DNA from: Ottowia beijingensis
Lineage (GTDB): Bacteria; Pseudomonadota; Gammaproteobacteria; Burkholderiales; Burkholderiaceae_C
Direction of reading: 5' to 3'
Assembly: GCF_013423955.1 (NCBI RefSeq)
Contig: NZ_JACCKX010000001.1
Coordinates: 3,844,001 to 3,908,000 of the forward strand
DNA length: 64,000 bases
Of the stretch, positions 4,422-64,000 are shown in pieces. The notes beneath the pieces are model-generated. The model was not told the origin of the DNA, did no database searches, and was given only the letters and a program-made list of their open reading frames with translations. How positions within the stretch are numbered: position 1 is the stretch's first letter; every line of letters begins with the position of its first letter. Both the position numbers and the translations under genes were made by a program.

Positions 4422-7400
4422 GGGGTCTCCTCGTTTTCAGTGCAATAAGTGACGGTACGCAAAGCTAGCACTGGCGCGGGGGTGGTCTGGGTAGACCGTT
4501 GATTTCATTGACTTTCCTGTTCGCTTTGTAAACGGGTATGGTGGCCTCCCACTTTTGAGGTTCACGATGCAGGGTTGGCACACAACGTTTTTGGGGATGC
4601 GTGGGCTCCCCGCGATATCAGCGACTTCGAGATGAAGGCATTTTTCACCTTCGATGGTGCCGAGCGCGACGCAATCAATGCACGCCGAGGTGATTCCCAC
4701 AAGCTTGGTCTGGCGCTCCATATTGGTTTCCTGCGCATGAGTGGGCGTTTGCTCGGTGCCTTTCGGGTAATTCCAGTAGCCTTGTGGCGCCACCTTGGCA
4801 ACGAGCTTGGCATTGCAGCACCAGAAGTCGCCTCGCTGAGAGCCATGTATGAACGCGGGCGCACGCTATTCGATCACCAACAAGTAGCCTGCACGGTCCT
4901 TGGATTCCAGTGGATGAGCGAGCACCAGCGCCGCTCACTGGTACGTGAACTGCGCGACGAAGTGGCGCGCTGCGCCGACCGCGATCAGCTACTCGTGCGG
5001 GCGCGTCAATGGCTGTACAAGAACAAGCTGGTGATCGTGCACGAGCGGGCAATTCGGACACTGATTGCGGCGGCACTTGCCCAGCTTGAAGTTGAAACAG
5101 GCACCGCCATCGCCGCCAGCGTTGATCCAGCAACACTTGATCGCTGGCGAGCTCAGTTTCAGAGCTGCGCCCAGATGGACAAACCCAGCAGAGTTGGCTA
5201 TGGGCTGCACCGGCGAAACACTCAACCCGCCAAATCAGCGAGGTACTGGAGCGCATCGACCTGCTTTACACGCTGGACGTTCATAAGCACCTGGCAGACA
5301 TCCCCGATCTCATCTTGCGCCGCTACGCGCGCCGACTTGTCTCCAGGCCGCCCTCAGCCGGGCCAAGATCAAAGAGCCAGCGCGCACCGTGGAGGTCGCA
5401 TGCTTTCTTCGATATTGCCTGTTCACCACCACAGACCAGTTGATCCTTATGGTGCAGCGCCGGATCGCCGATCTGTGGCGTCAGGCTGCCGCCGATGTCC
5501 CCGCTACCGTCAATTGGGCCGCAATGTACAAAACGCTGCTCGGCGAACTTGTTGCCTTGAGCGCGCAAGGTGCGGTGCCAGATGCTGAGTTGCGTGCCCG
5601 TCTTGAAGCCTTGATCACCGAAACCCAGAAACGCAAACCACCGAGCAGGGCCTCCCTGGTCCGCGAGGGATTGATTGATGGAATTCGCCCCGTGCGGTCG
5701 TTGCTCGTCGCCATTGCAAAGCTGCCCTGGCAGGCCACCGGCGAGCATCCTGCCATCGAGTACCTTGCCAAGCTGCAAGCTTTATATCTCAAAGGATCCA
5801 GAAAGCTGCCAGTTGAAGTGGTGGCACCAAGTCTGGGAATGATCTGGCAGGTTTCGATCTCCAGCCCAGACCGGGAACGGGCGTTTCAGGCGTTGGAGGT
5901 GGCCACCCTGTTTGCCCTGCGCCGCGCGGTGCGCAATGGCTCGGTCTGGATTGAGCACAGCCTGAGCTTTCGGGGTCGTGCGCGCTTGTTCTTCACGGAC
6001 GAGCGTTGGCAGGCAGAGTCCAAGAAACACTATGCCCGTCTATCGTTACCCAGCAAGGCTGCCACTTTCTTGAAGCCTTTGCTGGCCAGAGTAACTGCCG
6101 GTGTCGATGCGGTGGCCGCTGCAGCCCGCAGTGGCGTACTGCGCGTGGATGATGAACTCCATTTGTCGCCATTGCCCGCAGAGGACGAAGACCCAGAAGT
6201 GACCAAGCTGCGCGCGGCTTTGGATCACCGCATCGGTGAGGTTCAATTGCCGGAAGTGATTCTGGCCGTTGACGCCCAGGTGCGCTTTAGCTGGATCATG
6301 CTCGGACGTGAGCCGCGCTCTACCGACGAGCTGCTGATGGTCTATGCCGGCATCATGGCCCACGGCACCAGTCTGACTGCGGTCGAATGCGCGCGCATGA
6401 TTCCGCAATTGTCTGCCACCAGCATTCGCCAGGCCATGCGCTGGGCGCGGGACGAACGGCGTCTGAGCCAGGCCTGCCAGGCTGTGCTGGAATTCATGCA
6501 GCGACACCCGATTGCCGCCACCTGGGGGCGGTCCGATTTGGCATCTTCTGACATGATGAGCATGGAGACCACCAAACGGGTGTGGCAAGCCCGGCTTGAT
6601 CCTCGGCGCAACACACCTTCCATTGGAATCTACTCCCATGTAAAAGACCGGTGGGGCATCTTCCATGCGCAGCCCTTTGTGCTCAATGAGCGCCAGGCGG
6701 GCGTGGCCATTGAAGGTGTCATCCGCCAAGAAAAGCTGGAGACCAGCCAGCTTGCTGTGGATACCCATGGCTACACCGACTTTGCCATGTCACATGCCCG
6801 TTTGCTTGGTTTTGATCTTTGCCCGCGGTTGAAGGAACTCAAACAGCGCCACCTCTTTGTGCCACGCGGCACCAAAGTGCCCGCAGAAATCGCTGCGGTG
6901 TGCGAAGCCAATGTCGACGTCGCTTTGATCGAAAAGCATTGGGATAGTCTGGTGCACCTGGCAGCCTCGGTCATGAGCGGACATGCCAGTGCGGTGGCAG
7001 CTCTTGCGCGGTTCGGTTCTGCCGCCCAGGGCGATCCAATCTATGAGGCTGGCGTGCAATTGGGGCGGTTGCTGCGTACGGCGTTTTTGGCTGACTACTT
7101 TGTCAAGGACGCTTTCAGGAACGAGTTGCGCCGGGTGCTCAATCGGGGCGAGGCTGTTAACGCCCTCAAGCGCGCCATTTATACCGGCCGGATCAGCCCG
7201 GCGCAGGCCAAACGTGTCGATGAAATGCAGGCTGTGGCCGATGCGTTGAGCCTGATGGCCAACATCGTGATGGCGTGGAATACCTCACAGATGCAGGCGG
7301 TCCTGGATCGCTGGTCGAACCGCCGCCAGGTCATTCCACCGGAACTGATCGGGAAGATTGCGCCCACCAGGCTGGAGAGCATCAACTTGCGGGGTGTGTT

Positions 7401-19564: not shown

Positions 19565-19766
19565 CGGGATCGACCCGGGGAGGTTTTTCATCATTTCATG
19601 AACTGGCTGACCCCTGGGTCTCATCAAAACATCATGCTGCTGTGCAGCAATCGCGGCTCCGGGCTGTCCGCGGGTGCCGCAGCCGGCGGCTACCAACCTG
19701 CGGGCGGGCCTCTTTGACGCGATTTGCTAGGGATTAACCCTGGATTTATCGATATTTGCGCGCAAA
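19537..19766. promoter_or_regulatory. Operator candidates of the phenol operon: two TATCGATA sites and TTTGCGCGCAAA
   Basis: TATCGATA occurs at 19537-19544 (start of dmpR) and 19747-19754, and a perfect 12-bp palindrome TTTGCGCGCAAA lies at 19755-19766, 11 bp upstream of the -24 box. TTCATGAA (19595-19602) and TGCTG-N5-CAGCA (about 19633) are weaker inverted repeats. Binding by the GntR repressor or the DmpR-like activator is inferred. The exact DmpR/XylR upstream activating consensus was not found. Confidence 0.4.
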
Positions 19767-48486: not shown

Positions 48487-50280
48487 TCAGAACGCTGCGT
48501 CAGAGAACTCCAGCGTGGCGCCCGAGCCAGAGACGATTGCATGCCGCAGCCCCGCCGATTTGGAAAGAACGTGGTCACCGTAGAAGCGGCAGGTCAAAAT
48601 CTTGTAGGTCAAGAAGTCCGAGCCAGGATCCGATGCGAGGAGGCGGTCGGCAGCCAATGCGGCCCGTCCCATTTGCCATCCAGCCGCGACGATGCCCAGG
48701 AGTTCCAGGAACGGACCAGAACCCGCCAGGGCAGGCTTGGGACCGCCCTCCCAAGACTTCACAAGCGACTCCACTGCTGCCTCGAGGTCGCCGATACCCT
48801 TGTTCAACTGAGCACCAATGGCGCGGAGTTCGGCATGCGCATGGGATTCCAGGTCAGCCTGGACCTGCCGCATACGCACGATCACCGCACCAATCGCGCG
48901 TCCGCCATCGCGGCCGATCTTGCGTCCCACCAGATCCATCGCCTGGATGCCGGTCGTGCCCTCATAGATCGTCGTGATGCGGGCGTCGCGGAGATACTGC
49001 GCGGCTCCGGTTTCTTCGATGAAGCCCACGCCGCCGTGAACCTGGATCCCCATGGAGGCGATATCCAGACCGGTTTCCGTGAACCACCCCTTGGCGACCG
49101 GCATCATCAGTTCGACGAAGGCCTGGTGGGCATCCCGGACTTCCGGATCCTGATTCAGCGCAGCCTGGTCCATGCTTGCCGCCATCACCGCCGCCAGCGC
49201 GCGCATGGCCTCAATCCGGGATTTCATGCTCAACAGCATTCGGCGCACATCGGGGTGCCGGATGATCGCAACTTTGGCGCTGGTCTCACCGCCTTGCTCC
49301 ACGCCTTGAACCCGCTCCCGCGCATATGCCCTGGCCTTCTGGTAAGCGCGTTCGGCCAGCCCAATGCCCTCCAGGCCCACGGCGAAGCGCGCCGAGTTCA
49401 TCATGATGAACATGTACTCCAGCCCGCGGTTCTCCTCACCGACCAGATAGCCGACCGCTCCCGCACCGTCGCCGAAAGCCATGACGCACGTGGGCGTGGC
49501 ATGCAGGCCGAGCTTGCGCTCGATCGACACTGCTCGCACGTCGTTGTGCTCGCCCAGCGAACCATCTTCATTGACCAGCACCTTCGGCACCGCGAACAGC
49601 GAGATCCCCTTGGTTCCGGCCGGGGCGCCTTCGACCCTCGCAAGCACCAGATGCACCACGTTCGGAACCAGATCGTGGTCCCCGTAGGTGATGAAGATCT
49701 TGGTGCCATGCAATCGGTACGAGCCATCGGCCGCGCGGGTGGCGCGGGTGCGCACGGCGGAAAGGTCAGAGCCTGCCTGCGGCTCGGTCAGCACCATCGT
49801 GCCGGTCCATTCACCGCTGACCATGCGCGGCAGGTACCGCTGCTGCAGTTCAGGCGAACCAGCGTGACGCAGCACGTTCACCGCGCCTCGCGACAGCAGG
49901 CTCAGCAGGCCAAACGCGACGCTGCCGCTGTTCCACATTTCTTCGACTGCAGCGGCCAGCACGCCGGGAAGATTCTGTCCGCCCTGCTCTTCAGGCGCGG
50001 ACAGTGCAGGCCAACCGGCCTCGACGAAACGCGCATACGCCTGCGCCCAGCCCGCTGGCATACGGGGCGCGCCACCTTCAAGGCGAACGCCCTCAATGTC
50101 TCCCGAGTGGTTCAGAGGAGCGATGACCTCCGAGGCAAAGACTCCAGCCTCTTCCAGCACTGCGCGAGCAAGGTCGGGAGTGGCCTCGCCATAGCCGGGC
50201 AGCGCTGCGATTTCATGCAGGTCCGCGAGCTCATTCAGAACGAACTGCATGTCCTGCAAAGGTGGGGTGTACTGACTCAT
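48487..50280 (-). CDS. Acyl-CoA dehydrogenase, DmdC-like
   Basis: 597 residues, intact. Long-form acyl-CoA dehydrogenase with an extended C-terminus, as in the DmdC/3-methylmercaptopropionyl-CoA dehydrogenase-like group. FAD and substrate motifs: TGTMVLTEPQAGSDLSAVRT, KIFITYGDHDL, IERKLGLHATPTCVMAFGDG, QVHGGVGFIEETGAAQYLRD, ITTIYEGTTGIQAMDLVGRK (catalytic base region). It introduces an alpha-beta double bond into an acyl-CoA. In this cluster it may dehydrogenate the cyclohexanecarboxyl-CoA-type intermediate before hydration and BadH oxidation; that assignment is inferred from neighbours. Confidence 0.88.
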   Translation of the reverse strand: MSQYTPPLQDMQFVLNELADLHEIAALPGYGEATPDLARAVLEEAGVFASEVIAPLNHSGDIEGVRLEGGAPRMPAGWAQAYARFVEAGWPALSAPEEQGGQNLPGVLAAAVEEMWNSGSVAFGLLSLLSRGAVNVLRHAGSPELQQRYLPRMVSGEWTGTMVLTEPQAGSDLSAVRTRATRAADGSYRLHGTKIFITYGDHDLVPNVVHLVLARVEGAPAGTKGISLFAVPKVLVNEDGSLGEHNDVRAVSIERKLGLHATPTCVMAFGDGAGAVGYLVGEENRGLEYMFIMMNSARFAVGLEGIGLAERAYQKARAYARERVQGVEQGGETSAKVAIIRHPDVRRMLLSMKSRIEAMRALAAVMAASMDQAALNQDPEVRDAHQAFVELMMPVAKGWFTETGLDIASMGIQVHGGVGFIEETGAAQYLRDARITTIYEGTTGIQAMDLVGRKIGRDGGRAIGAVIVRMRQVQADLESHAHAELRAIGAQLNKGIGDLEAAVESLVKSWEGGPKPALAGSGPFLELLGIVAAGWQMGRAALAADRLLASDPGSDFLTYKILTCRFYGDHVLSKSAGLRHAIVSGSGATLEFSDAAF

Positions 50281-50302
50281 AGTGCCTCCTGTGGCGAAGC
50301 GC

Positions 50303-50320
50303 TTGCGTTCAACAACGCAA
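50303..50320. promoter_or_regulatory. Perfect inverted repeat TTGCGTT-CAAC-AACGCAA
   Basis: Lies 23 to 40 bp upstream of the acyl-CoA dehydrogenase start codon. It is an operator-like 7-4-7 palindrome with no T tract, so it is not a terminator. It occurs in the 146-bp gap after the crotonase gene at 50427. Confidence 0.4.
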
Positions 50321-50426
50321 ACAGATGGATAAATTTCTTATTCGGATCTCCAACCGTGTGCGATGCCTCGGTCGTGAAGTACCGCTGCCTGAGACATCGC
50401 AAGGGCTTGCTGCAAGAGCATGCCGC

Positions 50427-51221
50427 TCACTCGCCGGTGAAGTTCGGGGGCCGCTTTTGGGAGAACGCCTGCAGACCTTCCCGGTAGTCGGCACTCCAGC
50501 CCATTTCGCGAATGAAGCTGGCCTCCATGGACAGTTGCTGCTCCAGCGAATGGCTGGTGGCCGCATGCATCAACTGCCGGGTGCGTACCAACGCCTTGGT
50601 CGGCATCTGGGCGATTTGTGCTGCCAAGGCATCGATGGTGCCGGCGAACTTCGAGTCCTCGACCACCTGCCAGATGAGCCCCCACTCAGCCGCCGTCGCG
50701 GCTGGGAGCTTCTCGGCGAGCATTGCCAGACCCAGAGCACGCACGGTGCCAACGGATCGCGTGAGAAACCAGGTACTGCCGGTATCCGGCGTCAGCCCGA
50801 TCCTGGAGAAGGCTTGCAGAAAGTAAGCGGATTGGGCGGCCACCACCAGATCGCAAGCCAGCGCGATGGATGCGCCGCCTCCCGCAGCCAACCCTTGCAC
50901 CGCCGCGACAGTAGGAACCTGCAGGCTCTGCAAGCGCATCACCAGCGGCTTGAAGTACCGCTCCACCAGATTGCCGATGTCCGGCAACTTGCCATCGACC
51001 TCCTGCATGGCGGGATCGGCAAGATCCTGCCCCGCGCAGAAGGCACGTCCCGCCCCGCCAAGCACCAGCACCCGCAACTGGCGGTCGGCTTCAATTCGGG
51101 ACATGGCCTCATGGAGCTCCACCATGGTCTCGGCGTCCAGGCTGTTGAGCTTCTCCGGCCGGTTCAGCACGATGCGCGCCACGCCGCTGTCCACCGTGAA
51201 AAGAATGTTCTTGAATGTCAT
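50427..51221 (-). CDS. Enoyl-CoA hydratase/isomerase (PaaG-like)
   Basis: 264 residues, intact. Crotonase fold: VARIVLNRPEKLNSLDAETM, RAFCAGQDLADPAM (CoA/oxyanion), AAVQGLAAGGGASIALACDL and SRIGLTPDTGSTWFLTRSVG. The second oxyanion and catalytic positions resemble PaaG-type isomerases (D in TPDTGST, with no Glu in GGGASIAL), so isomerisation is more likely than simple hydration. It ends with SADYREGLQAFSQKRPPNF, the family C-terminus. It lies between the acyl-CoA dehydrogenase and a DMT transporter in the minus-strand cluster. Confidence 0.87.
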   Translation of the reverse strand: MTFKNILFTVDSGVARIVLNRPEKLNSLDAETMVELHEAMSRIEADRQLRVLVLGGAGRAFCAGQDLADPAMQEVDGKLPDIGNLVERYFKPLVMRLQSLQVPTVAAVQGLAAGGGASIALACDLVVAAQSAYFLQAFSRIGLTPDTGSTWFLTRSVGTVRALGLAMLAEKLPAATAAEWGLIWQVVEDSKFAGTIDALAAQIAQMPTKALVRTRQLMHAATSHSLEQQLSMEASFIREMGWSADYREGLQAFSQKRPPNFTGE

Positions 51222-51250
51222 GCTTCAACTCCTTCAGGACGTGATCGGAA

Positions 51251-52194
51251 TCAGTTCGGCTTGCGCACGACGATCCCGACGCCGATTGCGGTGACGACCA
51301 TCCCGGCGACCGTCAGCCCCGTGACCGGCTCGCCAAAAGCACCCACGCCATCACCGCTGTCGTGGGAGGTACTAGGTAGAAAAGACTGGTGACGGAGGTT
51401 GCGGCGCCTCGCTGGATCAACAGATACAGCAAAGAGCTGCCTCCCAACGTCAGCCCCAGCACGGACCAGGCCATGGCCCCCGCCAGCTCCGAATTCAGGC
51501 CCCCAGCGGCGCCGACCCACCGCATCGGCTCCGTTTCCAGCAACGCCAGAGGTGTGGTCACCACAAACGCCGCCAGCAATTGGATGAAGCTGGCGGTCCG
51601 AACATCGCAGGGAGCCACGAAGCGCTTCTGGTACAGGGTTCCCATGGTGATGGCCAGCAGAGCCGTCAACGCGCAACCCAAACTGGCAGGGCCGACCTCC
51701 CCGAACCCCAGCTTTGCCCAAACCACCAGCAGCAATCCCAGCAGTCCGAGAACAAGCCCCACCCATTGGGCTCTTGTCACGCTGCCGCCTCGGCGGGAAA
51801 GCCAGATCGCCGTCAGAACGGGCTGCAACCCGACGAGCAATGCAGTCAGGCCCGCGCCCATCCCCATCTTCACTGCGGCCCACACGCCGCCCAAGTAGAT
51901 GGCGTGCATCAGCATCCCGGTGACGCTCAGGTGCAGCCAGCTCCGGGCGTCCCGCGGCCACGTCGCCCGGGCGGCAACGGCCCAAATGCCAAAGCAGCCG
52001 ACGGACAAGGCATAGCGAACCGCCAGGAACTTCATGGGCGGCGAATGCGGCATGCCGTACCTGGCCACGACAAAGCCCGTGGCCCAGATGACCACGAACA
52101 CAAGGGGCATCGAGCGCACCAGCATCGGACTTGCCGCCGAATGCGCTGGCTCCCGGAGATCAGATGCGCTGGAAATAGGGACTCCCTGAATCAA
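51251..52194 (-). CDS. EamA/DMT-family transporter (one frame break)
   Basis: About 314 residues with ten predicted helices in two EamA repeats: LVFVVIWATGFVVARYGMPH, MLMHAIYLGGVWAAVKMGMG, GLVLGLLGLLLVVWAKLGFG, VLGLTLGGSSLLYLLIQRGA, VTSLFYLVPPTTAVMAWVLL. After a break at about 51326-51340 the frame continues GEPVTGLTVAGMVVTAIGVG to the stop at 51251. DMT proteins usually export metabolites or amino acids. Why it is embedded in an acyl-CoA cluster is unclear; export of an acid intermediate is one option. Confidence 0.85.
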
Positions 52195-52214
52195 AGACTG
52201 CGTGGGGAAACCAC

Positions 52215-52987
52215 TCAGTGTCCGGTGAACAGAGGCTTGCGCTTGCCCAGGAAGGCAGTGACTCCTTCGACGGCATCACCGGTCTGGGTCGCCGCCGAGA
52301 AACACTCCGCCTCCTGCTGCAGCCCGTCCTCCATGCGCATGGACTGCGAATGCCGGATCGCCTCGAGCGCATGGCCCAGGGACGCCGGAAACGGCTCGCC
52401 GAGGCTCTTCAGATAGGCGACTCCCGCATCGATCGGATCCTCGACCTCGACGATGCGATGGATCAGGCCGATGCGCTCTGCTTCCTGGGCATCGATCGCA
52501 CGGCCGCTGGCAATCAACTCCACAGCTCGCCCAACGCCCACCAGGCGCGGCAGCCGCTGCGTTCCCCGTAGCCGGGAATCAGGCCCAGCTTGATCTCGGG
52601 GAGGCCGAGCCGCGACGTGGGCGTCGCGATCCGAAAGGTGCACGCCATCGCCAGCTCGAGCCCGCCCCCGAACGCCACGCCAGTGATGACTGCGACGGAA
52701 GGAATGCGCAGGCTGTCCAGCTTGGCGAACGCCAACTGACCACGCCGTGCGGTTTCGCGCTGCTCGCCGGCATTCTTGCCCTGCAGTTCGCTCACATCGG
52801 CGCCCGCGCAGAAGGACTTGCCGCCGCCTGCACCAACGATGAGCAGTGCCCGGGCGTCCGATACCGCGACCTCGTCAAGACGGTTGGAGATCTCTCCGAC
52901 CATCTCGGCGTTCAGCGCATTCAAGGCCTTCGGGCGGTTCAGCGTCAGGATCGCGACACCATCACGGTAGGTCAGCTCCGCGCTCAT
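52215..52987 (-). CDS. Enoyl-CoA hydratase (one frame break), BadK-like role possible
   Basis: About 257 residues. [57 protein letters not shown] and [20 protein letters not shown] (after correcting the C run 52564-52567). Both catalytic glutamates (GLELA and LPEIKLG) are present, so true hydratase activity is expected. The start ATG (52987) overlaps the badI stop as ATGA. Next to badI and badH, it is the best candidate for hydration of cyclohex-1-ene-1-carboxyl-CoA, the BadK step; inferred from context. Confidence 0.87.
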
Positions 52988-53784
52988 GCCTGGCTGCCTT
53001 CGTCGGATTGGGGACGGAAACGCGGCTTGCGCTTCTCCAGGAACGCCTTGACACCCTCGTGAGACTCTTCGGTACCGTAGTACAGCGCCAGCGCCTGCAT
53101 GCCCAGGCCGCCAATACCACGGATCGAATCCGAATCGGCGTTGAAGGAGCGCTTGGCGATGGCAATCGCTGTCGGGCTCTTTTCCATGATTTCCTGGCAC
53201 CAGCGATCGACTTCGGCATCCAGTTCCGCCATGGGAACGACAGCGTTGACTAGCCCCATGGCGAGCGCTTCCTGCGCCTTGTAGCGGCGGCACAGATACC
53301 AGATCTCACGGGCTTTCTTCTCGCCAACCACGCGGGCGAGATAGGCCGTGCCAAAGCCGGGATCCACCGAGCCGACCTTCGGGCCGACCTGGCCGAACTG
53401 AGCCGTGTCCGCAGCAATCGCGAGATCGCAGCAGGTCACCAGCACGTTGCCGCCACCGATGGCAAAGCCATTGACGCGGGCAATCACGGGCTTCGGCACC
53501 TCGCGGATCATTCCTTGCAGTTCCTCGACCGGCAGACCGATCAGGCCCCGGCCGTCGTAGCCACCATCATGGGCCGACTGGTCGCCCCCTGTGCAGAACG
53601 CCTTCTCGCCCACGCCGGTGAGCACGATGACGCCAATGCTCTTGTCCCAGCCGGCACGGTGCAGCGCGTCGATCAGTTCGTCGCAGGTCTTGCCGCGAAA
53701 TGCGTTGTACTTTTCGGGACGGTTGATGGAGATGCGGGCAACGCCGCCCTTCACTTCGTAGAGGATGTCCGTGTAGTTGCTCAT
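52984..53784 (-). CDS. badI: 2-ketocyclohexanecarboxyl-CoA hydrolase
   Basis: 266 residues, intact. Member of the crotonase superfamily that opens the alicyclic ring of 2-ketocyclohexanecarboxyl-CoA to pimelyl-CoA. It matches Rhodopseudomonas BadI and MenB-like enzymes closely in [82 protein letters not shown], and [17 protein letters not shown]. The CTGGDQ and GSVDPG motifs separate it from ordinary enoyl-CoA hydratases. Adjacent to badH. Confidence 0.92.
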
Positions 53785-53802
53785 GGTCGTCTCCTGGTGG
53801 GG

Positions 53803-54570
53803 TTAGCCGTGCATGGTCAGGCCGCCGGACACCGAGATGACCTGGCCGGTGATGAAGTTGGCGTCGTCGCTGGAGAGGAACGCCACGGCGCCGGGAATGT
53901 CCTCGGGCTGGCCAAGGCGCTTCAGGGGAATGGCCCGCTTGAGACCGTCGTAGATCTTCTGGCCGAACTCGCCGCCGCCCGTGAAGGACTGCAGCAGCGC
54001 GGTATCGGTGGGCCCCGGGCACACCACGTTGACGCGCACATTGCTGCGTGCCGTCTCACGGGCCAGCGTCTTGCTGAAGGCGATGATGCCGCCCTTGCAT
54101 GCGGAGTAGACGGATTCGCCGGACGAACCGACGCGCCCCGCATCGGAGGCGATGTTGACGATCTTGCCGCCGCCGGCCGCCACCATGAAAGGCACCACGG
54201 CATGCTGCAGGCTCAGGGGGCCCTTGAGGTTGATCGCGATCAGTTTGTCCCACAGATCGGGCGTGGTCTCGACAAACTGCTTGGCCACGTCCCAGCCGGC
54301 GTTGTTGACGAGGATGTCGATCTGCTTGAGATCGGCGTGGATCTTCTGCACAGCCTTGGCAACCGCGTCGTGATCCGTGATATCCAGCTGAGCCGTGGTC
54401 AGCTGACCCGCGTACTGTTGGAACTGGCCCTTGATTTCATCGAGGCCAGCCTGGTTCAGATCCAGTGCGGCGACGCGCGCACCCTCCTCCAGGAAACGCT
54501 GCACCAGGCTGCGCCCGATGCCGCCGGCTGCGCCAGTGATGATGGCCACTTTGTCTTTGAGTCCACGCAT
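53803..54570 (-). CDS. badH: 2-hydroxycyclohexanecarboxyl-CoA dehydrogenase
   Basis: 255-residue SDR, intact. NAD-binding TGAAGGIGRSLVQRFLEEGA, NNAGWDVAKQFVETTPDLWD, active-site SDAGRVGSSGESVYSACKGG (S, Y-x3-K), VNVVCPGPTDTALLQSFTGG, and FITGQVISVSGGLTMHG at the C-terminus. NNAGWD and VCPGPTDTALL match BadH of the cyclohexanecarboxylate pathway well. Oxidises the 2-hydroxy to the 2-keto acyl-CoA, the substrate of BadI encoded 18 bp downstream. Confidence 0.9.
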   Translation of the reverse strand: MRGLKDKVAIITGAAGGIGRSLVQRFLEEGARVAALDLNQAGLDEIKGQFQQYAGQLTTAQLDITDHDAVAKAVQKIHADLKQIDILVNNAGWDVAKQFVETTPDLWDKLIAINLKGPLSLQHAVVPFMVAAGGGKIVNIASDAGRVGSSGESVYSACKGGIIAFSKTLARETARSNVRVNVVCPGPTDTALLQSFTGGGEFGQKIYDGLKRAIPLKRLGQPEDIPGAVAFLSSDDANFITGQVISVSGGLTMHG

Positions 54571-54598
54571 GGGAATGCTCTCCTGTAAATAAATTGAG

Positions 54599-56247
54599 TC
54601 AGTGATTGCGGTTGGCGATGACCTGAGCGACGTGGTCGCGCAGCTTGAATTTCTGCAGCTTGCCGGTGGCAGTGCGCACGATGGGCTCGAAGAGCACGTG
54701 CTTCGGCGTCTTGAAACCCGGTAGCCTGGCGCGGCAGAACTGGATGACCTCTTCCTGCGTCAAGGTGCCGACGTGCTGCGGATGCAGCTCCAGCACTGCA
54801 CAGGGGACCTCACCCCATTTCTCGTCCGGCACGGCGACCACCGCGGCCTGGAACACCGCCGGGTGCGTGAACAGGACCTCCTCGACCTCGATGGAAGAGA
54901 CGTTCTCGCCGCCGGAAATGATGATGTCCTTGGAGCGGTCCTTGATCTCGATGTAGCCGTCCTCATACACCACGGCCAGATCGCCACTGTGCATCCAGCC
55001 ACCCTCGAAGGCCTCTCGCGTAGCCTCGGGGTTCTTGAGGTAGCCCTTCATGCCCAGATTCCCTCGGAAAAGCACCTCGCCGATCGTCTTGCCGTCGCGG
55101 GACACGGGCTGCAGGGTATGGGGATTGGCCACCATCATGTCTCCCGCGACCGCCGTGCGAACGCCCTGACGGCCCATGTGGCGCAGACGCTCTTCAGCCG
55201 GCATGGCGGCCCACGAATCCTGAGGCACGCAGGTGGTGTTGACACCGTGCTGCTCAGTCATGCCATACACGTGCAGCACCTCGAAGCCCAGGGCCTCGGT
55301 TTGAGCGATCACCGACACTGGCGGCGAGGCTCCGGCGCAGGCGACCCAGATGGGGAGCTTGGCTTGCTCCAGTTCTGCGGCTTGCCTGCGATCAGCGAAC
55401 TGAGCACCGCCGGGGCGCCGCAGAAATGCGTCACGCTATGCTGGCCGATGGCGTCGTAGATGTCCTCCGCGACCACCTTGCGCAGGCACACACTCGTCCC
55501 GGCCACGGCGGCCAGGGCCCACGCATAGCACCAGCCGTTGCAATGGAACAGCGGCAAGGTCCACAGGTAGACCGGGACTCCTACGTTCAACCGCGCATAG
55601 AGGGAGGTGCCGAGCGCATTGAGATAGGCCGCACGGTGGTGGTAGACCACGCCCTTGGGGTTGCCCGTGGTTCCCGAGGTGTAGTTCAACGCGATGGCGT
55701 CCCACTCGTCCTCGGGGTAGCGCAGCTGCGCATCAGCAGGCGCATCGGCCAGGAAACGCTCGTAGTCGATCACACCCACCGGGTCGGCGTCTGGGACGTC
55801 GCTTGCACGGATGTCCACCACATCCATTTGCAAGCCGGAGAGCTTCACCGCCGCACGCGCCACCTCGGCAAATTGCTGGTCCACCATCAGCAACCGGGTC
55901 TCGGAATGCTGCAGGATGAAGGCGATCGCCGCCGCGTCCAGGCGGATGTTGATGGAGTTGACGACAGCGCCCGCCATGGGCACCCCAAACTGCGCCTCCA
56001 GCATCTCGGGGATATTGGCCGCGAGGATGGCGACCGTATCTCCACGCTGGATGCCCGCGCCGATCAACGCGCGTGCCAGGCTGCGGCAACGCTGGGCGTA
56101 GGCGGCCCATGTATAGCGCCGCTCGCCATGAATGACAGCGATGCGGTCTGGATGGATGTCCGCCGCTCGGTCGAGCAACGCCAGCGGGGTCAGTGGCTGG
56201 TAGTTGGCCGGGTTCTTGTCAAGACCTTGTTTGAATTTGTTCGTCAT
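54599..56247 (-). CDS. Acyl-CoA synthetase (AMP-forming) (one frame break)
   Basis: About 549 residues. Start MTNKFKQGLDKNPANYQPLT at 56247. AMP-binding signature NYTSGTTGNPKGVVYHHRAA, HVYGMTEQHGVNTTCVP, MHSGDLAVVYEDGYIEIKDR, IISGGENVSSIEVEEVLFTH and C-terminal Lys in RTATGKLQKFKLRDH. The frame breaks at about 55370-55378. Sequence style is of the AlkK/plant AAE group rather than BadA. In this cluster it most likely forms the CoA thioester of the imported acid (cyclohexanecarboxylate or similar); the substrate is inferred. Confidence 0.88.
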
Positions 56248-56275
56248 GCTTGTCTCTGAGTTAGGGCTGTCAAAG

Positions 56276-58303
56276 TCAGAACGAAACGGCCAGACGCGTT
56301 GCCTGGTCGATGGCGCGCAATGCGTCCAATTCGGCAGCAACATCGGCTCCGCCGATCACGTAGGGCTTGACGCCTCGCTCGGCCAAACCATCAAACAGCG
56401 TCCGGTTCGAGAGCTGTCCCGCGCAGAGGATGACAGTGTCCGCGTCCAATACGCGAGCCTCGCCATTCACGCTGTAGTGCAGGCCCTGGTCGTCAACGGC
56501 CTGGTAACTTGCTCCGGCCGTCATCGCCACGCCTGCCTTGCGCAGCTTGGCCTTGAGAATCCACCCGGTGGACTTGCCCAAGTTCTTGCCCAGTGACTCG
56601 GGCTTGCGTTGGAACATGTGGATGACGCGCTCGGTGCCGTGCTGCGCAGGCGCCTTGAGCCCGCCCGCGCTGCGAATGGCCGTATCCACACCCCAGGCAT
56701 CCATGAATACCTTTGGCTTGAGCGACTCCTCGGCACTGCCGACCAGGTACTCGGCCACGTCGAAGCCGATTCCGCCCGCGCCGATGATAGCGACCTTGTT
56801 GCCCACCGGCACGCCGTTGGCCAGCACATCCAGGTAGCTGACCACCTTCGGGTGATCAAGGCCTTTGATCTCGGGCTCGCGCGGGATCACGCCCGTCGCA
56901 ATCACCACCTCGTCGAACTCACCCGAACGCACACGCGCGGCGAGATCCTCCGCATCGGCTCGGGTTTTCAGATGCACCGCGACCTTCAGGCGCTCCAGCG
57001 AGACCCGGAAGTAGCGCAGCATTTCGTTGAACTCGTTCTTGCCCGGCACTTTGCGAGCCATATTCAGTTGGCCACCGAGCTGATCGCCTGCCTCGAACAA
57101 GGTGACCCGATGACCACGCTGCGCGGCATTGATCGCAAAGGCCATGCCGGCAGGCCCGCCACCGACAACGGCGAAATGCTTGGGCGCGGTGGTCTTGCTA
57201 TCGTCGAACTCGATCTCGCGCCCTGCCCTCGGGTTCACCAGGCAAGTCGCCACGCGGTCGGTAAAAATGCGGTCAAGGCAGGCTTGGTTGCAGGCGATGC
57301 AGGTATTGATCTCGTCGGCGCGGTTCTCGCGCGTCTTGCGGGCGAACTCGGGATCGGCGAGCAGCGGACGGGCCATCGAAACCAGATCGGCAGCGCCGGA
57401 AGCGATGATCTCTTCAGCCACATCAGGAGCATTGATGCGGTTGGACGCCATCACCGGAATGCCGACCGCACGCTTCACGTTGCGGATCGCGTCGATCCAT
57501 GCCGCACGCGGGACCGGCGCTGCCATGGTCGGCACGGACGATTCGTGCCAGCCGATGCCGGTGTTGATCATGTCGGCACCCGCCGCTTCGACCCGGCGGG
57601 CGAGTTCGGCCACTTCTTCGCCGGTCATACCCCCGTCCATCAGGTCGATGGACGAGATGCGGTAGATGACCATGAATTCGGGCGAGACCCGCGCCCGCAC
57701 GGCCTTCACGATTTCAAGGGGAAGCGGATCCGGCGATCAAAGTCGCCGCCGAACTCGTCGTCGCGCTGATTGGTCAATGCTGCGGTGAACTCGTTGATCA
57801 GGTAGCCCTCGGAGCCCATGATTTCGACACCCACGTAGCCAGCCTGCTCTGCCAGTGCCGATGTGTTCGCAAAGCTCTCGACCGTTGCCCAGACCTCTTC
57901 GGTCGTCAGCGCACGTGGAGGAAAGACGTTGATCCGCGCCTTGCCGGCCGACGGCGCCACACAGGTGGACACCTTGGCATAACGGCCTGCGTGAAGAATC
58001 TGCAGGACGATGCGTCCACCGGCCTCATTCACCGCCGAGGTGATCGCGCGATGCTCGCCCAAATCCCCGGGCTTTTGCAGCACCAGACCACCTTCATCCA
58101 TCACCCCTTCGGGCACGGGGAGTAGCCGCCGGTAAGGATGAGGCCGATCTCACCTGCGGCACGGGCCGCGTAGAAGGCCGCCAGTCTTTCATGGGGACGA
58201 TCCATTGTTTCCAGGCGCGTATGCATTGCGCCCATCACCATGCGGTTCGGCAGATCTACCCCAGCGACGCGCAGGGGCTCAGGAGGTGTGGATAGGTTGA
58301 CAT
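56276..58303 (-). CDS. FadH-like 2,4-dienoyl-CoA reductase / OYE-family flavoenzyme (frame breaks)
   Basis: About 675 residues. An N-terminal FMN TIM barrel (MSTYPHLLSP, PNRMVMGAMHTRLETM, GYVGVEIMGSEGYLINEF), a [4Fe-4S] cluster (CIACNQACLDRIF then CLVNP) and FAD/NADPH domains (FAVVGGGPAGMAFAINAAQR, VAIIGAGGIGFDVAEYLVGS). Strong resemblance to E. coli FadH along the whole length. Breaks at G/C runs 58274-58277, 58117-58120 and 57718-57721. It would reduce conjugated dienoyl-CoAs, here perhaps cyclohexadiene-carboxyl-CoA intermediates. It is the first gene of the minus-strand unit, with regulatory cassette 1 upstream. Confidence 0.87.
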
Positions 58304-58349
58304 GTTTGTCTCTCGTGCTGGGTTTGGGGTGAGTGCAATGATCCTCGCC

Positions 58350-58409
58350 CCATCAATTTACGTCAAGATCATGACGTATTTTATTTGAGAAATACAGGGT
58401 TAACACCTA
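58350..58409. promoter_or_regulatory. Regulatory cassette 1: MarR-type operator plus second motif
   Basis: Operator TACGTCAAGATCATGACGTA at 58359-58378 (9 of 10 positions palindromic), flanked by CCATCAATT on the left, then a 17-bp spacer and AGGGTTAACACCTA at 58396-58409. The same layout recurs at 60112-60171. It lies 47 bp upstream of the FadH-like start. The remaining part of 58304-58618 holds no gene. Confidence 0.7.
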
Positions 58410-58618
58410 CTTCATATAACATCTCAATCCAAATAACCATCAACATCACTACACAAATGAAAGCGATCGGCGCTACGACGATGACAGCTCCTACAGGCGT
58501 GCGGGGATGCCGAACCAGGTGTGGAACTCGCATTCGACGCGCGGCGCCCCTCCCCCGGCAAGGCGAGGTTGGGCTAGCAGCACCTGGCCAGGCCGCGAGG
58601 CCCCCACATCCATGCCAC

Positions 58619-59968
58619 TCACGTGGCAGTACTCGTCTTGAGGGTCTTGAGGGTCAGTTCCGAAGCCGATCGGCCATGGTTGATGCACGCAAGCGCAATC
58701 GCTCCCACAACGCCTGCGGCACCGATGACCAGGAAGTTCTGCTCAAGAGGAAGTTGCAGGGACACGATCAACCCGATCAGCAAAGGCGCAGCGATCGCCC
58801 CCATGCGCCCGATGCCCGACGCCATGCCGATGCCGGTGGACCGAATGTCTGACGGGTAGTACTGGCCGCTGTAGGCGTAGACCACAATTTGCGCCCCCGT
58901 CGAGCAAGCCCCAACCGCTGCGATGATGAAATAGAGCACCTCCGTCGAGGTTTTCAGCGTCATCATGTACAGGAAGACGCCGCCCAACGCGTACATGCAG
59001 ACCACGACCCATTTGATGTGGAACCGGTCCGCAAGCCACCCGCCGCCGATCGATCCGATCACCGCACCCACATTGAGTGCGATGACAAAACTCAATGCGG
59101 AGCCAAGGCTGTAGCCCGACATGGCCATCAGCTTCGTCAGCCAGGTGCTGAGCGCGTAGATCATGAACAAGCCAGTGAAGAAAGCCACCCAGAACATCAC
59201 CGTGCTCAGTCCGCGCCCATCTTGGAACAGTTGCGCTACGGTGGCACCGGCCCCAGCATTGGTGGCCCGAGGCGGATGGAAGGTGTCGTTGGCGCCGATC
59301 TTCAACCCCGGATCGATGGATTGGGCGATCTGACGCAGTTGCGCACTGTCTCGCCGGGATACCAGGAACGACAGCGATTCAGGCATCGACTTCAGGATGA
59401 AGGGGATCAGCAGCACCGGGACACCGGCGGCAAAGAACACGATCTGCCAGCCAAACTGCGCAATGAACTGCTTTCCCAGCACGGCAGCCAGAATGCCGCC
59501 GATGGCGTAGCCGGAAAACATCACGGTCGTCAGGAAACTCCGGATCCGCTTGGGCGCGTACTCGGTCATCTGAGCTGTGATGTTCGGCATCACGCCGCCA
59601 ATGCCCAGCCCCGCGATGAAGCGCGCGATGCTGAAGGTGACAGGATCTTTGGTCAGCCCCGCTGCCGCGGTGAATACGCTGAAGAGAAACACACAAAGAG
59701 AGATCGTCCAACGGCGGCCGATCTTGTCCGACAGCGCGCCCAGAAAGATAGCGCCGAACATCATCCCGAACAGAGCCGAGCTGGCCATGAAGCCAGCGGT
59801 CGCGGCTTCCACGCCCATCTCCTTCATGATGGCCGGAAGCGCCGCTCCAGCGACCGCCAAATCATAGCCATCAATGATGATGACCACGAAGCACCAGGCC
59901 AGCACCTTGGCATGGAAACGATTGAACTTGGCCTCATCGGCAAGTTCGTGCACGTTGATCTCTCGCAT
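58619..59968 (-). CDS. AAHS-type aromatic/alicyclic acid:H+ symporter (MFS)
   Basis: 449 residues, intact, 12 helices. Start MREINVHELADEAKFNRFHA (59968). DGYDLAVAGAALPAIMKEMG is the AAHS signature in helix 1; GALSDKIGRRWTISLCVFLF carries the loop 2-3 MFS motif; GLGIGGVMPNITAQMTEYAP and RIRSFLTTVMFSGYAIGGIL are typical of PcaK/BenK-like carriers. It would import the organic acid that the CoA ligase activates. Regulatory cassette 2 lies 144 bp upstream. Confidence 0.9.
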   Translation of the reverse strand: MREINVHELADEAKFNRFHAKVLAWCFVVIIIDGYDLAVAGAALPAIMKEMGVEAATAGFMASSALFGMMFGAIFLGALSDKIGRRWTISLCVFLFSVFTAAAGLTKDPVTFSIARFIAGLGIGGVMPNITAQMTEYAPKRIRSFLTTVMFSGYAIGGILAAVLGKQFIAQFGWQIVFFAAGVPVLLIPFILKSMPESLSFLVSRRDSAQLRQIAQSIDPGLKIGANDTFHPPRATNAGAGATVAQLFQDGRGLSTVMFWVAFFTGLFMIYALSTWLTKLMAMSGYSLGSALSFVIALNVGAVIGSIGGGWLADRFHIKWVVVCMYALGGVFLYMMTLKTSTEVLYFIIAAVGACSTGAQIVVYAYSGQYYPSDIRSTGIGMASGIGRMGAIAAPLLIGLIVSLQLPLEQNFLVIGAAGVVGAIALACINHGRSASELTLKTLKTSTAT

Positions 59969-60111
59969 GGGTCTTGTCTCCTTGTTTCGGTAGGGATACA
60001 TCGGAACCACGACCAAGACGTGCTACATCGGCGCGCTCATGCGAAGCACAAGCGACCAGAACAGACCTGCGCGCAGCCCATCGCTCTAGCGACGGCGCGA
60101 TCTTTGCAGAG

Positions 60112-60171
60112 CCAGCAATTTATATCAAGTTATTGATACATAATTTCTCTAAAGACTAGGGTTTACACCTA
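60112..60171. promoter_or_regulatory. Regulatory cassette 2: MarR-type operator plus second motif
   Basis: CCAGCAATT, operator TATATCAAGTTATTGATACA (60121-60140), a 17-bp spacer, then AGGGTTTACACCTA (60158-60171). Motif order and spacing are identical to cassette 1. It lies in the 344-bp divergent region between the AAHS transporter (minus) and the quinone-reductase-like gene (plus, 60313) and may serve both. No gene is seen in 59969-60312. Confidence 0.7.
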
Positions 60172-60312
60172 TATTTATACGGAAAATCAAACCGATCTAT
60201 GCAAATATGATTACATAATTCCAAGAATCGACGCATCAGAATCATCAGCAGAATTGGGCAACTTGAGTCCGTAGTTTTGACACGTCCCCATCACCCCTCC
60301 CCTCCGAGCAGC

Positions 60313-61305
60313 ATGAAAGCCGTACTCATTCGTCAGTTCAGCGAGGACCCTCGCACACATCACGTCGAAGAAGTGGCCGAACCGGTTGTCGGCTCCGATG
60401 ACATCCTGATCGCTGTCAAAGCAGCGTCTCTCAACTTTCCCGATCTCCTGGTCATGAGCGGGAAGTACCAAATCCTTCCCGAGCGCCCGTTCACTCCTGG
60501 AAAGGACGCAGCTGGCATCGTGGAGGCCGTCGGCCCGAACGTCCGCACCTTCAAGCAAGGGGACCACGTTGTGGCCCAAGTGGAGAACGGCTGCTTCGCA
60601 AGTCGCCTGTCCGTTCCTCAGTCGAGCGCACAAAAGATACCAACAGAAATGCCCTTCGCTGATGCGGCCGCGATGGGCCTCGTGTACCAGACGGCGTACT
60701 TTGCGCTCACGGACCGCGGCAATTTCCGCAACGGAGAGACCGTGCTGATCAGTGGAGCTGCCGGGGGTGTAGGGCTTGCCGCCGTTCAGATCGCCAAGGC
60801 CCTAGGCGCGAAAGTCCTCGCGGGCGTGACCTCGGAAGCCCAGGCGAAAGCAGTGCATCAATCCGGAGCCGATGAGGTGATTGACCTCTCGGCCGCCAAC
60901 CTTCCCGAGTCCACTCGCGAGCAAGTGCATCGCGCTACGAATGGAAAAGGAGCCGACGTCTTCCTCGATCCCGTGGGCGGCGATGTGTTCGATGCGTGCA
61001 TTCGCTCGCTCGCGCGGCGCGGCCGGGCGGTGATCATCGGGTTCGCCGCTGGCAAGATTCCGGTGATCAAAGGCTCCTACCTGCTGCTCAAGAACATCTC
61101 TGTCTCCGGTATGCAGTGGACGGACTACCCGACCTACTCGCCCGAGCTCGTCGCAGAGGCTCAAGCAAAACTGAACGAACTCTACCTGCAGGGACTCTTG
61201 CGCCCACACATCACGCAAGTGTTCGCTCTTGAATCTTTCGCTGACGCAGCCGCCCGGCTGACATCAAGAGGGGTGATCGGGAAGCTTGTCCTAACCATCC
61301 ACTAG
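60313..61305 (+). CDS. MDR-family NADPH:quinone reductase-like / enoyl-CoA reductase
   Basis: 330 residues, intact; start MKAVLIRQFSEDPRTHHVEE at 60313. Zinc-independent medium-chain reductase: ASLNFPDLLVMSGKYQILPE, PGKDAAGIVEAVGPNV, cofactor loop GETVLISGAAGGVGLAAVQI, ALGAKVLAGVTSEAQAKA and DPVGGDVFDACIRSLARRGR. No zinc cysteines. Related proteins act as quinone reductases or acrylyl/crotonyl-CoA-type reductases; in this cluster reduction of an unsaturated acyl-CoA is plausible but not shown. Confidence 0.86.
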   Translation: MKAVLIRQFSEDPRTHHVEEVAEPVVGSDDILIAVKAASLNFPDLLVMSGKYQILPERPFTPGKDAAGIVEAVGPNVRTFKQGDHVVAQVENGCFASRLSVPQSSAQKIPTEMPFADAAAMGLVYQTAYFALTDRGNFRNGETVLISGAAGGVGLAAVQIAKALGAKVLAGVTSEAQAKAVHQSGADEVIDLSAANLPESTREQVHRATNGKGADVFLDPVGGDVFDACIRSLARRGRAVIIGFAAGKIPVIKGSYLLLKNISVSGMQWTDYPTYSPELVAEAQAKLNELYLQGLLRPHITQVFALESFADAAARLTSRGVIGKLVLTIH

Positions 61306-61795: not shown

Positions 61796-62292
61796 CTAGC
61801 CCTCATCTTCCTCAGGGATAGCATCCATTTCCAAGGCGACCTTCGACATCCCGTCATTGAGCTGGTTAATGTGGTGCAGCAGAGAGATCTTGTCGTCGAA
61901 GCGAAAGCTTGCCACCGCTTGACGATAGAACTCGTAGATTCTTGGCTGGATTCCGTCCCAGAACGCCCGACCCGGTGGCAGCATCACAACTTTCTTGGCG
62001 CGCCTATCAGCTGGATCCACGACGCGAGCCACGTGCCCTTCGCGCTCCAGGCGCTTGAGAACCCCATCGAGACTCTGGCGGCTCACGACCAGATAGTCCG
62101 CCAGGTCGGAAAACGACATTCCATCCTTCACCTGCTTACGCGACAAGGCTCCCAGCGTCGCCCACTGGACTGTGGTGATGCCAAGCTCCTTGACGGACTG
62201 GCGATCCAAGGTGTTGCCAGCTTGGAACAGGCGAAAAACAATCGGTTGTGAACGGCGGAAACCGATTGATCGTAGTTTTCGTTATCAGACAT
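61796..62292 (-). CDS. MarR-family regulator, BadR-like candidate (one frame break)
   Basis: About 165 residues: MSDNENYDQSVSAVHNRLFF, then after the A run 62234-62238 (one base short) RLFQAGNTLDRQSVKELGIT. The winged HTH is MSFSDLADYLVVSRQSLDGV and LKRLEREGHVARVVDPADRR, with the wing motif D-x-R-D/A-R. The C-terminal helix is long and acidic at the end. MarR proteins usually repress genes and release DNA on binding aromatic or CoA ligands; BadR of Rhodopseudomonas does this for cyclohexanecarboxylate genes. The palindromes at 58359, 60121 and 62881 are natural targets. Convergent with the DUF1330 gene. Confidence 0.84.
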
Positions 62293-63119
62293 GCGCAGGT
62301 TAGTAGTCAGGGAGCTTCAAAGAGTTCAGAACCGAGCCATCAGGTAGCTGAACACCTCACGGGAACGACGGACAGGCGCCGTACCGCGATCCGCGAAAAC
62401 GCGTCTTCCCTAAGCGCCGCGAGCATCGACAGCCATTTGTCCATCTTAGCGGCTTTGCGCAAGGATGTTGACATAAACCCCTTTGGATTGAAGGCCGGGC
62501 CCAAATTGCCCGTCAGGTACTCGCCAAGAGATGGGGCACTCCTCATGTCGGCGCTTTACCGCAGTTGCCGCGGTCGCCCGGATCATCGGCGTCGCCAAGA
62601 GTCGTTCAAGGAAGTCATCACCCCGCTGTCCGACAAGCTGACGCCCGCGGCCCGAAAGGAAAAGCGGCCTAGTCACACAAAGCCCATCACGGCGACGGAC
62701 TTCGCGGCCGCTCGCGCAGTGTCTCGCGGCCTTGGCGCCCAGCAGTTCATCAGGGGAAACATGGCACCCCAAACAGGAGCCAGAGCCAAGGACACCCCGG
62801 ATTCACATCTACATCCTTATATACCTTAACCACCCACATCTCTCACACCACAGTAAAAGCCCCAGGTTTTCCCTAGTTTTTATATCAAGTTATTGACGTA
62901 TATTCTCGGCATCCAAAAGACTTCAAGAAGTTTCACGAGACAACGTATGGGATCCGGTATCTGCTTTCAAGGGCCGTCCACCCGGGCCGGCCCACTTCTT
63001 CCCGACAGCTTCGCACGACCGATTTAGCCACCCGGCGACGACCGAATGCGACCGAGGCCCTCGCCTCCCGCAACGCCTGACGCGCCGCTCTGCCCACCAT
63101 CAGCCCGAGAAGGACGCCC
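62293..63119. other. Gene-poor region with third operator copy
   Basis: 827 bp without a convincing gene. Frames on both strands at 62340-62829 show no recognised family and no good ribosome binding site. At 62881-62900 lies TATATCAAGTTATTGACGTA, the third copy of the operator found at 58359 and 60121; its upstream flank GTAAAAGCCCC only weakly resembles the second motif. TTGACG within the operator could be a -35 box, so binding would block transcription of the ABC transporter genes starting at 63120. Confidence 0.6.
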
Positions 63120-63880
63120 ATGGGATCCGACACCATCCTCGAGACCACCGATCTCACCAAGACGTTCAGTGGCTTCACTGCCGTGAACAAGGTCAACCTG
63201 CGCGTGCGCCGGGGTTCGATCCACGCCCTGATCGGCCCTAACGGCGCTGGCAAGACGACGGTGTTCAACTTGCTGACGAAGTTTCTGCCGGTGTCCAGCG
63301 GCACCATCCGCTACCGCGGCGACGACATCACCCACGAGACCCCCGCGAAAACTGCTCGCAGGGGCATCGTCCGGTCCTTCCAGATCTCGGCCACGTTCCC
63401 GCATCTCACCGTGTTGCAAAACGTGCGGGTTGCGCTTCAGCGCAGGCAAAGCGCGTCCTTCGAGTTCTGGCGCCATGAGAAAGCGTTGAGCGTGCATGAC
63501 GCCAGAGCCATGGAACTGCTCGAGTCGGTCGGCCTCGGTGGCCTGGCCGGCGTGAAGGCCGTGGAACTGCCCTACGGCCGCAAGCGCGCGCTCGAACTAG
63601 CCACCACCCTGGCCCTCGAGCCAGAGCTGATGCTCCTGGATGAACCGACCCAGGGCATGGGCCACGAGGACGTGGGACAGGTGGTGGGCCTCATCCAAAG
63701 GTCGCCGCCCACCGGACGATCCTGATGGTGGAACACAACCTGTCCGTGGTCTCCCAGTTGTGCGACACGATCACCGTGCTGCAGCGCGGCGCCATCCTCG
63801 CCGAAGGCGATTACCAGACTGTTTCGAACGACGCGCGTGTGCGAGAGGCCTATATGGGCGCCGAAGCGGAGGCAGCATGA
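63120..63880 (+). CDS. Branched-chain-type ABC transporter ATPase, LivG-like (one frame break)
   Basis: About 253 residues. Walker A IGPNGAGKTTVFNLL, Q-loop VRSFQISATFPHLTVLQNVR, signature-like ELPYGRKRALELATTLAL (LSYG variant), Walker B LMLLDEPTQGMGHED, and H-loop MVEHNLSVVSQLCDTITVLQ. The frame breaks at 63697-63699 (one A short), restoring LIQKVAAHRTILMVEHN. Insert typical of LivG (RRGIVRSF). Its stop overlaps the next start as ATGA. Probably drives uptake of the acid substrate of this cluster (as in benzoate/cyclohexanecarboxylate Liv-type systems). Confidence 0.88.
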
Positions 63881-64000
63881 GCGACATCCTCCTTGAAGTA
63901 CGCGATCTGAACGCCTACTACGGCGAGTCCCACGTGTTGCATGGCGTTGACCTCGAAGTCCGCACGGGTGAACTCGTCACCCTGCTGGGCCGCAATGGTG
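63877..64000 (+). CDS. Branched-chain-type ABC transporter ATPase, LivF-like, partial
   Basis: The first 41 residues before the window ends: MSDILLEVRDLNAYYGESHV and LHGVDLEVRTGELVTLLGRN, i.e. the first strands up to the start of Walker A. LivF partner of the LivG-like ATPase, overlapping it by four bases. Permease and binding-protein genes should follow beyond the right edge. Confidence 0.85.
   Translation, partial: MSDILLEVRDLNAYYGESHVLHGVDLEVRTGELVTLLGRNG

Follow-up and report, generated by a model that had tools for sequence, protein, structure and literature searches.

The window, by which we mean the whole 64,000-nucleotide stretch that we analysed, carries a bad-ali gene cluster near its right end. 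Promoter 1 heads the bad-ali operon, which runs on the minus strand from 58303 down to 48487. The operon begins with a flavoenzyme of the 2,4-dienoyl-CoA reductase type (56276-58303, minus strand; named after its annotated C. basilensis orthologue), and the rest (48487-56343, minus strand) encodes an acyl-CoA ligase, a BadH-like SDR, BadI, enoyl-CoA hydratases, a DMT transporter and an acyl-CoA dehydrogenase. Promoter 2 serves an MFS transporter gene (58619-59968, minus strand; PF07690 and PF00083). To its right lie a divergent zinc-type quinone oxidoreductase gene (60313-61305, plus strand; assigned by profile and annotated in C. basilensis), a MarR-type repressor gene (61796-62292, minus strand) and, downstream of a third operator, the ATPase genes of an ABC transporter whose branched-chain-amino-acid type was read from sequence (63120-63999, plus strand; frame broken).

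Other reading frames in the cluster are broken as well. The flavoenzyme frame is interrupted at about 57709 and that of the acyl-CoA ligase (54599-56343) is also broken, both at the same place in D. aerolatus, the flavoenzyme being intact in C. necator; the MarR-type gene is broken near 62233-62242. These breaks may be assembly errors or real frameshifts, some of them common to D. aerolatus. The region recurs almost unchanged on two further small contigs of the window's genome, C2 (99.7%, 25 gaps) and C3 (99.8%, 14 gaps), in each case over about 12 kb. The sites that they hold are therefore no independent evidence, and the assembly seems rich in indels. The D. aerolatus chromosome record has shifted frames in badR and in a neighbouring Lrp-type gene (L168:5347-5835 and L047:1070-1547), and a LysR gene beside beta-oxidation genes carries an in-frame TAG in three Cupriavidus records (L212, L213 and L216).

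Because the flavoenzyme and MFS genes both read leftward, the order at their promoters in the coding sense is box 2, operator, gene. At promoter 1 a 20-bp palindrome (58359-58378, minus strand; coding strand TACGTCATGATCTTGACGTA) adjoins CCATCAATT (58350-58358), and box 2 lies 17 bp upstream of it (58396-58409, minus strand; AGGGTTAACACCTA as read, TAGGTGTTAACCCT in the coding sense). The same layout is found at promoter 2, with CCAGCAATT (60112-60120) adjoining the palindrome (60121-60140, minus strand; coding TGTATCAATAACTTGATATA) and box 2 again 17 bp away (60158-60171, minus strand; AGGGTTTACACCTA as read, coding TAGGTGTAAACCCT). Promoter 3 has a third palindrome, TATATCAAGTTATTGACGTA (62881-62900, plus strand), and 17 bp upstream of it a degenerate box 2, ACAGTAAAAGCCCC (62850-62863, plus strand). 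Direct reading thus reproduced the boxes, coordinates and 17-bp spacing given in a preliminary description of this DNA, including its third palindrome copy at 62881, to which the degenerate box is now added. Only one of the two catabolic genes that it placed behind these sites heads a catabolic operon, namely the flavoenzyme gene; the other encodes the MFS transporter. Its estimate of three and a half helical turns needs correction, the centres of box 2 and operator being 34 bp apart, or 3.2 turns of 10.5 bp.

With up to three mismatches the palindrome pattern matches nine times in the window against 0.54 expected, a count reached by none of 100 shuffles; six of the nine matches are the three palindromes above, each counted on both strands. 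The box word at the same tolerance is not rare alone (three matches against 1.34 expected, with 12 of 100 shuffles reaching three). Without mismatches it is confined in the window to promoters 1 and 2, and with up to one mismatch the window's whole genome holds only these two sites and their copies in C2 and C3. A box-like word with two mismatches, AGGGTTAATCCCTA, is located at 19728-19741.

The palindrome resembles a site that has already been described. According to the accessible part of PMC9795900, CAAN4TTG is the operator of BadR, a MarR-type repressor of bad-ali genes; its outer CA and TG are essential, the Aromatoleum operators lie over predicted -35 boxes and the effector in Aromatoleum is cyclohexanecarboxyl-CoA. 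Operator copies 2 and 3 in the window read CAA-GTTA-TTG and match CAAN4TTG exactly, and copy 1 reads CAA-GATC-ATG, a single substitution at the third position that leaves CA and TG at the ends intact. The window operators therefore retain the essential letters; a badR homologue lies within the same cluster, its frame broken in the window's assembly, and the operator overlaps, as judged from sequence, the -35 of a bad-ali promoter. In sequence, then, the 20-bp palindrome agrees with the BadR operator described for the bad-ali (cyclohexanecarboxylate) genes and would be a site of known kind. We also considered an FNR/CRP-type site, which has the form TTGAT-N4-ATCAA, and rejected it: the palindrome has its half sites the other way round, copy 2 reading ATCAA-N4-TTGAT.

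The neighbouring MarR-type gene is consistent with this assignment. A 137-residue piece of its product (61796-62209) scores 47.4 bits against PF12802 (MarR_2; cut-off 27, E 2e-12) and 33.6 bits against PF01047 (cut-off 24.6), so the product of 61796-62292 matches winged-helix profiles of the MarR family above their curated cut-offs. Over 102 amino acids its counterpart in D. aerolatus shares 96% identity with the MarR protein of a cluster-bearing C. basilensis plasmid, and a badR homologue (E 1e-15 or better) is present in 49 of 80 badI loci. On profiles, similarity to badR and cluster neighbourhood, the gene is very probably badR. The preliminary description had proposed a regulon for alicyclic-acid use with the palindrome as repressor site, to which it expected the MarR protein to bind; the regulon and the repressor site are supported, and so is the MarR gene as very probably that of the repressor. 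It knew of no description of the two-box arrangement. The extra box and the fixed spacing are not mentioned in the accessible part of PMC9795900, but the repressor site is already published there.

The right half of the operator is also a candidate -35 hexamer, reading TTGACG, TTGATA or TTGATG in the window, D. aerolatus and C. necator. At promoter 1 the proposed -35, TTGACG, is followed after 17 bp by the proposed -10 GATCAT (58338-58343, minus strand; 9 of 12 positions match), and at promoter 2 TTGATA is followed after 17 bp by AAAGAT (60100-60105, minus strand). Promoter-like sites at promoter 1 are weak alone (two found against 1.7 expected); GATCATTG at its -10 is preserved in D. aerolatus as well as C. 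necator. The flavoenzyme and MFS promoters have GATCAT, AAAGAT or GAAGAT 17 bp after the operator's TTGAYR, and the -10s of the six aligned promoters are invariant for A at place 2, A at place 5 and T at place 6. We applied a simple sigma70 score to eight promoters, three from the window, three from D. aerolatus and two from C. necator. The best site starts 29 bp after the end of the box, at the operator's TTGAYR, in eight of eight (z 0.5 to 2.7), and six of them combine a 17-bp spacer with NANNAT; the two ABC promoters have an 18-bp spacer and poor -10s (AAGACT and AAACCT). Given that the operator's right half looks like a -35, box 2 would be centred near -72, a usual activator position, and a further conserved element near -115, both figures assuming a start 7 bp after the -10.

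How far is box 2 itself conserved? At the same offset from the operator, promoters 1 and 2 share 13 of 14 box letters, an agreement seen in one of 2000 dinucleotide shuffles at any shared offset and in none at that offset; the likeness of the two promoters at box 2 is beyond chance. Their 17-bp spacers agree by eye at only 6 of 17 letters against 13 of 14 in the box, as the preliminary description had noted in calling the spacers otherwise unrelated. Box 2 with exactly 17 bp is kept in both orthologous promoters of D. aerolatus (L047) and of C. necator SHC 2-3 (L048), where the gene order is that of the window. The C. necator promoter sequences, box 2 and its 17 bp included, recur on plasmids from C. 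basilensis and from Cupriavidus sp. P-10. The six aligned promoters have three blocks in common: an upstream element, box 2 (GTNNAAACCCY) and the operator. Cross pairs also retain the likeness to differing degrees, the window's MFS and the C. necator flavoenzyme promoter sharing 12 of 14 box letters (0 of 2000 shuffles) and the window's flavoenzyme and the C. necator MFS promoter sharing 9 of 14 (228 of 2000 shuffles anywhere, eight at that offset). At the third operator the D. aerolatus box is ACAGGTGTAGCCCT; like the window's degenerate box it ends 17 bp before the operator, although the latter matches the boxes of promoters 1 and 2 at no more than 6-7 of 14 letters and is weak alone. The second box with constrained spacing that had been proposed earlier is thus borne out in D. 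aerolatus and C. necator, whose orthologous promoters have lost neither.

The stricter form of the two-box pattern matched one of 399 genomes, the window's own, where it recovered the third-operator box at three mismatches, and none of the 398 others. A family-wide search allowing up to three mismatches gave loose matches in 125 of 299 genomes; among the matches listed, none outside the window's genome had fewer than two mismatches. A scan of 42 other loci covered 62 operator-like sites with an operator score of at least 20; 59 of them are without a box scoring at least 4 at 17 bp, which suggests that BadR does not need box 2. The best box score falls at 17 bp in five of the 62 sites. Scores of at least 4 at this distance were obtained in three: L054 (7.6), L089 (6.6) and L120 (8.2). 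By eye L120 has nothing like GGT-N4-ACC at 17 bp and L089 only a loose GGTGAAGACC, so the TAGGTAAATTCCCG at the box place of C. pinatubonensis L054, which is suggestive only, may be a chance match too. C. numazuensis has TAGGCAAATTTAAG at the box place, and P. fungorum aliA a box-like GGGTACAAACCC 2 bp nearer the operator. Box 2 is absent at Paraburkholderia PGU19, at two Trinickia sites and at the P. fungorum flavoenzyme promoter, and relatives of the flavoenzyme gene in three genomes (L127-L129, 70-72%) lack both operator and box within the 440 bp inspected.

The box word is also found at unrelated places. In the window's family 24 of 299 genomes contain the exact 14-mer AGGGTTWACACCTA. The window's own genome has two sites plus four in the near-duplicate contigs, and 23 of the 298 others have 24 sites, compared with three for the reversed word. 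For a rotated word with almost the same dinucleotides 280 genomes gave no site, and for its reverse five. Around C. necator 44 of 279 genomes contain AGGGTTWACACCTA, at 47 sites in all, and the reversed word has four. The same 14-mer therefore recurs in two Burkholderiales families, often between genes, and box 2 is not particular to the alicyclic regulon. Within three single genomes the excess is only mild for the looser word AGGTRWWAACCCY at up to one mismatch: in the window's genome contig C1 has 18 sites, or 24 if C2 and C3 are counted, against four for the reversed word, 23 against 15 in D. aerolatus and 29 against 17 in C. necator.

We inspected 44 loci with AGGGTTWACACCTA, comprising 24 of 24 in the window's family and 20 of 47 around C. 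necator. In 32 of the 44 no open frame of at least 100 amino acids covers the box, a count to be read with the reservation that stop codons inside the word favour non-coding matches. By flank similarity the 44 loci fall into 22 groups; many are the same promoter in relatives, so that the excess over controls represents fewer independent events. Genes adjoining the box, by profile, include bchF, a BoxR-type regulator (with the box inside the first codons of its open frame), a fadD-type ligase and, at a single locus, a phasin gene with its 3' end towards the box. Around C. necator a phasin-like protein was read from sequence at 11 of 20 loci and a DUF4148-like protein at five. D. aerolatus has a box-like AGGGTTATCACCTA between pcaI and a regulator gene of the PcaR/PcaU family (IclR type), where it might be the operator of that neighbouring regulator, but pcaI has a separate GAACATTTGTTC palindrome closer to it. 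No common promoter position was found among the 23 of 24 family box loci that were scored (mean z 0.15 and -0.01).

Two of these loci, L224 (BchF by profile) and L225 (bchF-type by likeness), repeat the architecture of the window with other parts. Here the box is followed by 15 bp, TGTCAA-N6-TTGACA, 17 bp and TACAGT or TAAAGT, with sigma70 z scores of 4.6 and 3.7. As in the window, box 2 stands at a short fixed distance (15 bp) from a palindrome that bears the -35, with a -10 at 17 bp; the palindrome and the pathway are different. The palindrome contains a TGT-N12-ACA site, which we take to be of the PpsR/CrtJ type. That the box can stand next to so different a palindrome speaks against a BadR-specific partner.

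Taken together, these observations lead us to favour, with reasonable though not strong confidence, BadR-repressed promoters that have an extra upstream site for a second, Burkholderiales-wide protein, likeliest a class I-type activator. BadR on the 20-bp palindrome carrying the -35 hexamer would block RNA polymerase until a pathway acyl-CoA (cyclohexanecarboxyl-CoA in Aromatoleum) releases it; by analogy with Aromatoleum, blocking of the -35 is a well-founded expectation. Box 2, whose sequence TAGGTGTWAACCCT contains GGT-N4-ACC as an inverted repeat core and which would lie some 72 bp before the start, would be the site of the second protein, which would be common to many Burkholderiales and would work at unrelated promoters too. 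Its likeliest role would be that of a class I-type activator or a general-physiology input setting the level of expression once BadR has gone, and the fixed 17 bp would keep it on a constant helix face relative to polymerase and BadR. Box 2 is thus predicted to be a site for a factor common to many Burkholderiales, probably an activator. That box 2 is bound by a protein, the second factor of the preliminary description, and that this protein activates, we infer. The case is sequence-based and combines the operator match, the similarity and neighbourhood of badR, the presence of box 2 and its spacing in three species, the -35 and -10 hexamers and the recurrence of the box in two families.

We weighed this reading against four others. 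Box 2 could be the -35 of an activator-dependent or unusual promoter whose -10 (TATAYA) lies at the left edge of the operator, with a start overlapping the operator; an AT-rich, partly -10-like stretch is indeed visible there by eye in the six aligned promoters. Hexamers within box 2, however, match TTGACA by eye at only 2-3 of 6 places, relatives that lack box 2 often retain TTGACA inside the operator, and the Aromatoleum operators themselves overlap predicted -35s (accessible part of PMC9795900). The sigma70 scoring, with eight of eight best sites at the operator's TTGAYR, rules out this assignment as a first choice, and we regard it as unlikely. Alternatively, box 2 could act as a bend or spacer for a repression loop that joins a BadR dimer at the operator to another at the third conserved element, about 77 bp apart. 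This element lies upstream of box 2 and is weakly operator-like at promoter 1 (TGTGTAGTGATGTTGATGGT, 58436-58455, minus strand; 13.1 on the operator matrix) and a palindrome, TATGTAATCATATTTGCATA, at promoter 2 (60198-60217, minus strand). C. pinatubonensis (L054) and C. numazuensis (L055) have two true CAAN4TTG operators about 77 bp apart (about 5287-5383), one of them at about this place, so the element may be a degenerate second BadR site; yet by eye the essential outer CA and TG are missing in promoter 2, and half of them in promoter 1. The paired operators sit between divergent badR and the flavoenzyme gene, and the second C. pinatubonensis operator may simply serve badR. Moreover, 77 bp amounts to 7.3 turns, which is out of phase, the distance varies from 74 to 78 bp over the six promoters, and box 2 occurs at many places without a BadR site. 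A repression loop therefore appears quite improbable to us.

The restriction of the 14-mer, at up to one mismatch, to these promoters in the window's genome would suit a regulator dedicated to alicyclic-acid genes, as the preliminary description had envisaged. Against this stand the recurrence of the box at unrelated places in related genomes and the stop-interrupted LysR gene near the beta-oxidation genes in three Cupriavidus records that keep box 2, and we consider a dedicated regulator rather doubtful. The box might also be a functionless remnant of an ancestral promoter that was recently duplicated or inherited. The closeness of D. aerolatus to the window would suit this, and the two promoters could share an origin; but the spacer has diverged while the box was kept, and the 12 of 14 letters shared across species by promoters of different genes, unmatched in 2000 shuffles, make mere ancestry highly improbable, although the other cross pair, at 9 of 14, is weaker. 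As for specific proteins, box 2 did not fit, by eye, the consensus of FNR, IHF or BirA sites. The LysR protein encoded beside the quinone oxidoreductase gene in C. basilensis had no tblastn match at E 1e-5 in the window, L166, L168 or L047, and the LysR beside the beta-oxidation genes was set aside for its in-frame stop.

Returning to the activator reading, we compared the promoters with known systems. They resemble the BadR system of Aromatoleum sp. CIB and Rhodopseudomonas palustris in the CAAN4TTG palindrome, the bad-ali targets, the MarR repressor gene in the same cluster and the operator over the -35. They differ in having operators also at MFS and ABC transporter genes, and in the second box 17 bp upstream and the third conserved element, neither of which is mentioned in the accessible part of PMC9795900. 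A literature search for the exact strings of box 2 returned, among the matches listed, no title or abstract on a bacterial promoter box. GntR/HutC-type operators include GGT-CTAG-ACC; the geometry of the box 2 core, GGT-N4-ACC, is alike and the central letters differ, so this is a resemblance only.

Through the repressor half of the arrangement, a known regulon comes to include transporters encoded next to the alicyclic-acid genes. Box 2 offers a short, testable lead to a regulatory protein seemingly used in at least two families of the Burkholderiales, an order rich in pollutant degraders, and the loci described above could serve as bait for it. More tentatively, TAGGTGTWAACCCT might be the operator of an unrecognised Burkholderiales regulator, a fixed-position upstream input paired with many pathway-specific repressors (BadR at ali, a PpsR-type protein at bchF, and others), which would bring one signal to catabolism, storage and photosynthesis; we raise this as a possibility that we would not expect to hold.

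Two further arrangements of the box were observed. In 11 genomes of the C. necator family (L241-L250 and L252) it lies about 13 bp from a conserved TTAATTGTCAATTAA palindrome, which differs by one letter in L247, before a phasin-like gene. In D. aerolatus three box-2-like sites fall within about 90 bp (L175:1422-1513), in the interval separating a murA-like gene from an IclR-type regulator gene (types judged by eye) and before a frame of about 25 codons.
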